Origin: Rhodopseudomonas rhenobacensis
GTDB taxonomy: Bacteria > Pseudomonadota > Alphaproteobacteria > Rhizobiales > Xanthobacteraceae
Direction of reading: 5' to 3'
Length of the DNA: 64,000 nucleotides
Assembly: GCF_014203125.1 (NCBI RefSeq)
Contig: NZ_JACHIH010000018.1
Span: 1-64,000 of the forward strand
The first letter of the stretch is position 1. Every line of letters starts with the position of its first letter. This document shows, piece by piece, positions 9,780 to 13,984 of the stretch. The position numbers were made by a program, and so were the translations under genes. The notes under the pieces were generated by a model, which did not search any database, was not told the origin of the DNA, and was given only the letters and a program-made list of their open reading frames with translations.

Positions 9780-9980
9780 ATGGCCGACGTCGACAACCTC
9801 GTGCTCGAGCATTTGCGTCACATCCGCGGCGCGGTCGACGGACTGCGCGACGACATGCGCGAGGTGAAGCAGCGGATCGGCAACCTCGAAAGCCAATATG
9901 CCAGCCTGTCGAACCGGCTGGACCGCATGGATCTGCGCATCGAGCGCATCGAGCACCGCCTCGATCTGACCGAAGCCTGA
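9780..9980 (+). CDS. Small coiled-coil protein, duplicate copy A
   Basis: 66 residues, predicted to be one long helical coiled coil with heptad Leu/Val/Ile spacing, no cysteine and no signal peptide. The first 34 residues are identical to those of the neighbouring gene at 10088-10330, and the C-terminal EHRLDLTEA is also identical; copy A lacks an internal ~14-residue block. The upstream DNA (GCAGACAAGGTGAACC before the ATG) is duplicated too. Function unknown; small Rhizobiales proteins of this type are usually hypothetical. Confidence 0.75.
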   Translation: MADVDNLVLEHLRHIRGAVDGLRDDMREVKQRIGNLESQYASLSNRLDRMDLRIERIEHRLDLTEA

Positions 9981-10087: not shown

Positions 10088-10330
10088 ATGGCCGACGTCG
10101 ACAACCTCGTGCTCGAGCATTTGCGCCACATCCGCGGCGCGGTCGACGGACTGCGCGACGACATGCGCGAGGTCAAGCAGCGGATCGGCGCGGTGGAGCG
10201 GGAAGTGGCCTTGATTCACGTCGAATTGGCTCAGGTCCATGTCAAGGTGGCTGAGCTGTCCGACCGGGTTGATCGTCTGTCTGATCGCATCGAGCGTGTC
10301 GAGCACCGCCTCGATCTGACCGAAGCATGA
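10088..10330 (+). CDS. Small coiled-coil protein, duplicate copy B
   Basis: 80 residues, all-helical heptad pattern (VEREVALIHVELAQVHVKVAEL then SDRVDRLSDRIERVEHRL, split for length). It is a paralogue of the gene at 9780. Its TGA overlaps the ATG of the lytic transglycosylase (ATGA), so the two are probably translated together. Copy A is followed by the same GAGCCGGGTGCCG sequence that here forms the first codons of the transglycosylase. That suggests copy A arose by duplication of this locus, including the start of the next gene. Confidence 0.78.
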   Translation: MADVDNLVLEHLRHIRGAVDGLRDDMREVKQRIGAVEREVALIHVELAQVHVKVAELSDRVDRLSDRIERVEHRLDLTEA

Positions 10331-11686: not shown

Positions 11687-11971
11687 TCAATCGCAGACGC
11701 GGACCGGGCGGCTGCGCCAGACGCCGCGGTAGTCGTCCCAGAAGCGCTCGCGAACCACGCGGCAGGCCGGCTCTTCGACATAGACCGGGGCGGGTTCGGC
11801 GTAACCATAGGCCGGACGGCTCGACGCGATCGCGCCACCGAGCAGGGCGCCGCCGATCAGACCGCCGGCAACGCCGGCGGCGATGCGGCCGCCATCGGCC
11901 TTGGCCGGCGCAACCGCTGCCAGCGAGGCAACCGTGGCAACCGCGAGCAGGGCGGAAATCGTCTTCTTCAT
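11687..11971 (-). CDS. Small secreted glycine-zipper protein
   Basis: 94 residues with a clear signal peptide (MKKTISALLAVATVASLAAVAPAKA). A Gly-rich zipper (AAGVAGGLIGGALLGGAIA) follows that could insert into or associate with a membrane, then a short domain with two cysteines ending RSRPVRVCD. The C-terminus resembles that of the protein at 12187-12507 (RFWD-x-Y...R-x-VRVC), so the two are paralogues. Function unknown. It has its own terminator at 11603-11633. Confidence 0.75.
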   Translation of the reverse strand: MKKTISALLAVATVASLAAVAPAKADGGRIAAGVAGGLIGGALLGGAIASSRPAYGYAEPAPVYVEEPACRVVRERFWDDYRGVWRSRPVRVCD

Positions 11972-12186: not shown

Positions 12187-12507
12187 TCATTCGCAAACCC
12201 GCACGCGGCGCAGCCGCCAGCCGTAGCCGTCCCAGAAGCGCTGCTGCTGCCAATAGCAGCCCGGCACCGCCAGATAGGCCGGCCCGCCGTAGCCGTAGCC
12301 GCCGTAGTAAGCCGGACCATAGCCATAATAGCCCGGGCCGTAATAGTAGCCGGGGCCGGCCAGCGCCCCGCCGACGATTGCGCCGCCGAGCAGGCCGGCA
12401 GCGATTCCCACGCCGAGGCCGCGCTGGGCATGGGCCGGGGCGGGCAGCGCCACGGTGGCAACGGCCAGGGCGGCCACCGCGCCGAGCGCCAACAATCTCT
12501 TGGTCAT
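12187..12507 (-). CDS. Small secreted glycine-zipper, Tyr/Gly-rich protein
   Basis: 106 residues from the ATG at 12507: signal peptide MTKRLLALGAVAALAVATVALPAPAHA, Gly zipper GVGIAAGLLGGAIVGGALAG, a Tyr/Gly/Pro-rich middle (GYYYGPGYYGYGPAYYGGYGYGG) and a C-terminal QQRFWDGYGWRLRRVRVCE. This matches the layout of the neighbour at 11687-11971. Upstream in-frame codons lack protein-like sequence, so the internal ATG was chosen. Likely outer-membrane or periplasm associated; role unknown. Confidence 0.75.
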   Translation of the reverse strand: MTKRLLALGAVAALAVATVALPAPAHAQRGLGVGIAAGLLGGAIVGGALAGPGYYYGPGYYGYGPAYYGGYGYGGPAYLAVPGCYWQQQRFWDGYGWRLRRVRVCE

Positions 12508-12928: not shown

Positions 12929-13336
12929 ATGATTGTCTGTTCTTGCAATGTCCTTACCGACACCGAAATCCGCGGCGCCGTTCTGGCCTCTGAAGCTCCC
13001 CTGACCACAGGTGAGGTCTATGGGTGCCTCGGCTGCAGCCGGCAATGCGGTCGCTGCGCCCGGACCATCAAGAAGATCATGCACGAGGCGCTGACCGACG
13101 TCTGTTCCGCGGCGTGCACCGGCGAGCAATGCAACGACGGCCACGCCCATCCGGAAAAGCCGGCTCACGTCCACGCCCATCCCCATGCCCACGCCCATCC
13201 GCATCAGCACGGCCATGGGCATCCGCATGGTCATGGCCACGCGCACCCGCACGTCGACCCGCATCATCATACCCACGATCTCTCCCGCGCCACCGAGCTT
13301 AAGGCCGAGCGCGAGCTGGCGGCCGAAGCCGCCTGA
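12929..13336 (+). CDS. bfd: Bacterioferritin-associated ferredoxin with His-rich C-terminal tail
   Basis: 135 residues, about twice the usual 55-75. Residues 1-55 are a BFD [2Fe-2S] domain: C4-x-C6 and Cys33/36/40/43 in YGCLGCSRQCGRCART. Bfd reduces heme in bacterioferritin to release stored iron. Residues 72-116 hold 21 histidines, mostly in H-x repeats with A, P and G, followed by a short acidic helix. Such tails bind Ni, Zn, Cu or Fe in metallochaperones, so the tail may buffer or hand over metal (inference). bfr lies 165 bases downstream on the same strand. Confidence 0.92.
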   Translation: MIVCSCNVLTDTEIRGAVLASEAPLTTGEVYGCLGCSRQCGRCARTIKKIMHEALTDVCSAACTGEQCNDGHAHPEKPAHVHAHPHAHAHPHQHGHGHPHGHGHAHPHVDPHHHTHDLSRATELKAERELAAEAA

Positions 13337-13501
13337 GCCGCTCCAGCGCGGTTGGGCCTGCGAACGCGTCGTATTCTGTGTTGTCGTTTTGTTGCGCTGC
13401 TCCTAGAACAGTCGGAGACACGATCCGCTTCGGATTGATTTGTCTCAGAATCCGACGTGCAACAGCCGCCGACCCCGAGGCGGCCATAGGAGAGCGACCA
13501 C

Positions 13502-13984
13502 ATGAAGGGCGACCCCAAGGTCATCGAATATCTCAACAAGGGCCTGCGCAGCGAGCTGACCGCGATCAGCCAGTATTGGCTGCACTATCGCCTGCTGGAC
13601 AATTGGGGTCTGAAGGACATGGCCAAGCAGTGGCGCAAGGAGTCCATCGAGGAGATGGAACACGCCGACAAATTGACCGACCGCATCATCTTCCTCGACG
13701 GCTTCCCGAACATGCAGGTGCTCGATCCGTTGCACATCGGCCAGAACGTCAAGGAAGTGCTCGACGCCGATCTCGCCGCCGAAGTCGGCGCCCGCACGCT
13801 GTACCAGGAAGCCGCGACCTACTGCCACGGCGCCAAGGACTACGTGTCGCGCGACCTGTTCGAGCAGCTGATGAAGGACGAGGAACACCACATCGACTTC
13901 CTCGAAACCCAGCTCGATCTGATCAGCCGCATCGGCATCGAACTCTACCAGTCGACCCGCGTCGGCGAACTCGAACACGACTAA
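13502..13984 (+). CDS. bfr: Bacterioferritin
   Basis: 160 residues, standard length. It is a 24-mer iron-storage protein with heme at subunit interfaces. The heme ligand Met52 and ferroxidase ligands Glu18, Glu51, His54, Glu94, Glu127 and His130 are all in place, so it should be catalytically active. The start follows an AGGAGAG ribosome-binding site. Pairing with bfd implies joint control of iron storage and release. Confidence 0.97.

Follow-up and report, generated by a model that had tools for sequence, protein, structure and literature searches.

Bfd-driven release from bacterioferritin (Bfr) is described as the best understood exit of iron from a ferritin (PMC12363616). In P. aeruginosa, Bfd docks on Bfr and electrons go to the haem of bacterioferritin (PMC12363616; PMC7762939), and the interface hot spot at residue 5 of Bfd is reported to be Leu, Ile or Val (PMC12363616). 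For Rhodobacter sphaeroides, a 12.3-fold upregulation of bfd under iron limitation is reported (PMC3413700). Nickel-binding histidine stretches are documented in other proteins, with 24 His in 39 residues in HypB and 16 in 34 in CooJ (PMC8704837), and the zinc-related C-terminal extension of plant HMA4 is described as having a dispensable His stretch and essential di-Cys motifs (PMC6255694). No description of a His-rich Bfd was found among the top-ranked titles and abstracts of the open-licence literature. A Bfd-like [2Fe-2S] domain is joined to metal handling in the copper chaperone CopZ of Archaeoglobus, with another partner domain.

The DNA analysed here, referred to as the window, is a stretch of 64,000 nucleotides from Rhodopseudomonas rhenobacensis (contig NZ_JACHIH010000018.1), and its features of interest are collected in Table 1. 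The locus was compared with a sample of the family in which 181 of 198 genomes matched; the best 149 of the 181 genomes were read, giving 150 loci because one genome was represented twice. The genus comprised this one genome only. Three other BFD-domain genes of the same genome (L001-L003) and the window copy itself (L085) were excluded from the counts. Eighty named loci were retrieved because they resembled the query; 41 of the 80 entered the structure alignment, two codon pairs were drawn from the set, and none entered the frequencies.

Table 1. Features of the bfd-bfr locus in the window
Feature	Position	Strand	Basis
Palindrome TTGA-N6-TCAA	12795..12808	+	Exact match occurs twice in the window (0.36 expected)
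Conserved upstream box TTTGGAATAGCTTCAAA	12823..12839	+	Similarity to TTTGGAATAGCTTGAAA
bfd, 135 aa, Bfd domain and tail	12929..13336	+	ORF with ATG start; PF04324
Bfd [2Fe-2S] domain, about residues 1-56	12929..13096	+	PF04324, alignment, model pLDDT
Bfd-Bfr interface residues	12932-12943 (bfd), 13703-13744 (bfr)		Comparison with P. aeruginosa
Cysteine patch, residues 59-68 (C59, C63, C68)	13103..13132	+	Sequence; common in family tails
Histidine stretch, residues 72-116, 21/45 His	13142..13276	+	Composition count; low model confidence
Predicted C-terminal helix, residues 111-134, end LAAEAA	13259..13330	+	AlphaFold2 model
bfr, bacterioferritin, 160 aa	13502..13984	+	TIGR00754, 202 bits; 165 bases downstream of bfd

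An earlier note made from the sequence had proposed that a Bfd domain and a tail of 21 histidines are combined in one protein, and the ORF, the Pfam match and the His count all bear this out. PF04324 (Fer2_BFD) matched residues 2-53 with 31.5 bits, above the Pfam cut-off of 26, and the NCBIfam Bfd equivalog PRK10509 scored 31.7 bits, under its cut-off of 75; the name Bfd is given on the strength of the domain, the pairing with bfr and the nearest structures, and not of PRK10509. The cysteines C4, C6, C40 and C43 form a C-x-C and a C-x2-C motif and match the cluster cysteines of P. aeruginosa Bfd in the alignment. By sequence, the nearest solved structures were P. aeruginosa Bfd (4e6k) and its truncated mutants. 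Foldseek likewise returned P. aeruginosa Bfd as the top matches (probability 0.99, target TM 0.78-0.79), with an E value of only 0.15 and none at 0.001. The AlphaFold2 model had a mean pLDDT of 69.9 and a pTM of 0.42, and its domain part was of fair quality (block mean pLDDT 73-84 over residues 1-60). PF04324 matched four times in the genome, the other three matches lying within longer open frames of 376-1000 aa.

The window Bfd resembles P. aeruginosa Bfd in the [2Fe-2S] domain over residues 1-61, in the spacing of the cluster cysteines and in having a bacterioferritin partner. It differs in adding a CLGC pair, a cysteine patch and a His stretch, and the solved Bfd structures are without such a tail. 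The CLGC pair (C33 and C36; 13025-13036), located just ahead of the second pair of cluster ligands, was present in 148 of the 150 family loci listed. At the N-terminus, Tyr2 and Leu5 of P. aeruginosa Bfd are replaced by Ile2 and Ser5.

The partner gene bfr follows bfd in 148/150 family loci listed. The window Bfr carries the residues that we take to be expected at the ferroxidase and haem-ligand positions. Residue 5 of Bfd is Ser in the window and in all 148 family loci counted, and so falls outside the Leu, Ile or Val of the described hot spot. As an observation in its own right, residues at the known Bfd-Bfr interface differ from those of P. aeruginosa on both partners together, with Ile2 and Ser5 in Bfd and Gln81 in Bfr (148/148) together with Phe68 in Bfr (140/148); the hot-spot numbering other than Leu5 is our assumption.

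Along the tail, the cysteine patch is followed by the His stretch and then by the predicted C-terminal helix. Residues 61-120 were modelled with block mean pLDDT values of 47-66, and residues 121-135 with 86 and 85. The count of 21 His in residues 72-116 agrees with the earlier note, from which the patch and the helix were absent. Against the 2.0% His frequency of five hand-picked window genes, the binomial chance of 21/45 His is 4e-24. Across the window, the second-best 45-residue stretch held 11 His (590 open frames of at least 60 aa). A chance or wrong-frame stretch was rejected as a candidate by this difference of 21 versus 11 His and by the frame-specific retention of the codons. Within the tail, 17 pairs of histidines are two residues apart and few carboxylates stand among them. 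The His density is similar to that of HypB, UreE, CooJ and Hpn, in which the stretch is likewise flexible (PMC8704837); this likeness is one of composition and does not imply membership. The window stretch is located on an iron-release ferredoxin and is accompanied by a cysteine patch. The His stretch is best read as part of a probable metal-binding tail, and we take the ORF to encode a genuine Bfd to which an additional tail has been joined that would bind metal.

The distribution of the tail parts was then taken from the loci listed. At least two tail Cys were found in 138/150 family loci and at least three in 114/150, and at least two lay inside the first 20 tail residues in 137/150. Histidines were far less common: at least one in 96/150 tails, at least five in 30/150 and at least 15 in 9/150, leaving 120 tails with under five. 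The patch took the form C-x3-CC-x2-CPH in 48 of the 150 loci; in 26 it was C-x2-C-x3-C with a subsequent P or A. In other families of the order, each of six loci (L236, L274-L276, L278 and L279) had three tail Cys and at most two His per protein. From other alphaproteobacterial orders, 24 Bfd-like matches with the highest scores among 387 genomes sampled across the class were read, and none had more than three His in the whole protein; one of them, L259, sits in a 940-residue frame. For 397 genomes sampled across the phylum, the match table lists nothing from outside the order that spans the Bfd start to beyond query residue 80 without a stop. Given these family, order, class and phylum comparisons, the cysteine patch seems characteristic of the order, and within the loci read pronounced His tails occurred in this family only. 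The assertion that ordinary Bfd has no such tail accordingly fits the best-scoring matches from other orders, but inside the family the tails are recurrent and graded.

The tail recalls the extension of plant HMA4, in which Cys motifs are also followed by a His stretch (PMC6255694). HMA4 is a membrane ATPase, and homology with the window Bfd is not claimed; by analogy, the function of the tail may reside in its cysteines.

The history of the tails was read from a tree built on 148 concatenations of Bfd domain and Bfr, from which the tails were omitted, as were L184 and L234 (one genome, without adjacent bfr). On this tree, the label of at least 15 His required six changes and that of at least five His 18 changes. 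A single clade for the nine His-richest loci, a group defined by the number of His without sight of the tree, was rejected (p-AU 5e-32). The window grouped with the tail-less L088 and L089 (support 100/94), and L086, with 18 His, grouped with the tail-less L216 (98/78); within a clade of seven (99/94), His-rich tails occurred in the window and L086 only. The tail-less proteins of L006 (Rhodopseudomonas palustris JSC-3b) and L012 (R. faecalis) are the same or nearly the same as those of L089 and L088. Tails of this kind have been acquired or lost repeatedly among related bacteria, gain and loss being inseparable on a tree whose bootstrap was not fully settled. Tailed Bfd is a real, recurrent variant of Bfd. 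Recent loss by a new stop codon was tried as an origin of the tail-less forms and rejected: no His-rich remnant was found in three frames over about 160 bases downstream in L216, L088, L089, L229 and L231, a result that bears on this kind of loss and no other.

Five of the six nearest relatives of the window are without a His-rich tail, so that it is dispensable among near relatives. The earlier note had named absence from close relatives, or patternless variation among them, as grounds against its reading. The absence is real for those five, but the His codons of the tails change mostly synonymously. In eight tail pairs aligned as DNA, 22 of the 29 single-step changes at His codons were synonymous, against 3.2-6.4 expected (transition weight 1 to 4), and the histidines therefore look selected. 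At the other tail codons, 58/101 were synonymous against 27.7-31.3 expected, a smaller excess than at His; when every changed His codon was counted, the figure was 22/39. The excess is an upper view, because the alignment favours identity and the pairs were hand-picked, with at least 15 His in both members of only three of the eight; another two pairs were omitted, as each had one tail in common with a pair already included.

These data bear on the possibility that the tail is a low-complexity passenger, in which slippage makes His-x repeats at a tolerant C-terminus and no specific role exists. Such an origin would suit the variable tail length, the close relatives without a tail, the repeat-like copies by which L132 and L228 differ, and a tandem-repeat signal in the tail, albeit a weak one (71-79% matches). 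The synonymous excess at His codons, the enrichment of His itself beyond the neighbouring residues and the recurrence of tails in separate lineages speak against it. So does the mixture of CAC and CAT (9:12 in the tail, not different from the 22:12 of five window genes, p 0.16); given this mixture and the weak tandem-repeat signal, the tail does not give the impression of having expanded recently. We consider a mere passenger unlikely.

For the preferred reading, that of a functional Bfd whose tail buffers Zn, Ni, Co or Cu beside the Bfr-Bfd complex, we would put the chances at about even. As in the family at large, the [2Fe-2S] cluster of Bfd would pass electrons to the haem in the bacterioferritin encoded next to it, whereupon the stored Fe(III) would be reduced and iron released. 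The flexible tail would offer two modules of metal ligands, the cysteine patch beside the domain and the multi-site His stretch, and would most likely bind more than one kind of first-row divalent metal, with Zn, Ni, Co or Cu ahead of Fe. It would serve as a local buffer, so that competing metals reach neither the exposed cluster nor Bfr while iron is being released. Against such buffering stand the dispensability of the tail among the nearest relatives, the large majority of listed family tails with few His, and the case of plant HMA4, whose His stretch could be spared (PMC6255694).

General coordination chemistry makes iron a less likely candidate for the bound metal than Zn, Ni, Co or Cu. 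Fe(II) ranks below Zn, Ni and Cu as a partner of polyhistidine, and this preference, together with the scarcity of carboxylates in the window's His stretch, weakens the idea of the earlier note that the tail catches Fe(II) leaving bacterioferritin and hands it on. The tail is part of Bfd, the protein that in P. aeruginosa docks on Bfr (PMC12363616), and this position would fit such a receiver, which we nevertheless regard as quite improbable. A further proposal is a pH or charge switch, in which a fall in pH would make the His stretch positive and alter binding to the acidic Bfr shell. The near-neutral pKa of its many histidines would allow a switch of this kind, but the cysteine patch would be left unexplained, and we rate it as very improbable.

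Another proposal is a regulatory gate, in which metal on the Cys patch and His stretch would alter Bfr docking, cluster stability or turnover. It is favoured by the position of the cysteine patch next to the domain, by the frequency of the patch in the family and by the three tail Cys of all six loci from other families of the order. We judge such a gate rather improbable, and with it the linked proposal that another metal pool would thereby set the rate of iron release. The same low expectation attaches to an order-wide form, in which the Cys patch would be a high-affinity Zn/Cu site to which the His tails add capacity, the metal pool again setting release.

Upstream of bfd, about 60 of the 149 upstream regions matched TTTGGAATAGCTTGAAA with at most two mismatches, the best shuffle having five. 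The palindrome TTGA-N6-TCAA was exact in 13/149 family upstream regions against 0.4% of shuffles, all shuffles being mononucleotide ones, and in each of the seven loci that make up the window's clade, where it starts 28 bases before the start of the TTTGGAATAGCTTGAAA-like box. It resembles what we take to be an FNR/FixK site. The box TTTGGAATAGCTTCAAA may belong to the core promoter or represent an iron control element in degenerate form, and the palindrome and box at a fixed offset suggest possible oxygen-linked control of bfd. The promoter scan gave no sigma-70-type site, and the sole terminator-like site was no better than shuffles give. An Irr-type iron control element, by the consensus that we assume for it, was found exactly between bfd and bfr in 47/148 family loci; in window positions 13337-13501 it was not recognisable, the best candidate having six mismatches.

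Several further observations were made. The Bfd C-terminus is AA, or AA plus one residue, in 68/150 loci (among them AAE in 22, AAA in 14 and AAC in 14; 13319-13333 in the window), and Bradyrhizobium-like Bfd ends in forms such as AANDE...FALAAC. These latter ends resemble an ssrA-type protease tag, and the AA-type C-termini could mark regulated Bfd turnover. On the minus strand, two adjacent small ORFs (11687-11971 and 12187-12507) have signal-peptide-like starts and similar ends (RFWD...RVRVCE and RFWDDY...RPVRVCD), and neither had a Pfam match at 0.001. On the plus strand, a small ORF beginning MADVDNLVLEHLRHIRGAVDGLRDDMREVKQRIG is present in tandem near-copies (9780-9980 and 10088-10330).

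The recurrent gain or loss of tails suggests a possible metal-handling role. The interest of tailed Bfd lies in the sister species, some tailed and some not, which make a role of metal testable: Cys/His tails gained or lost beside tail-less sister species provide natural pairs for the role of other metals in iron release. If the gate reading were true, the state of another metal pool would directly govern how quickly iron leaves bacterioferritin.
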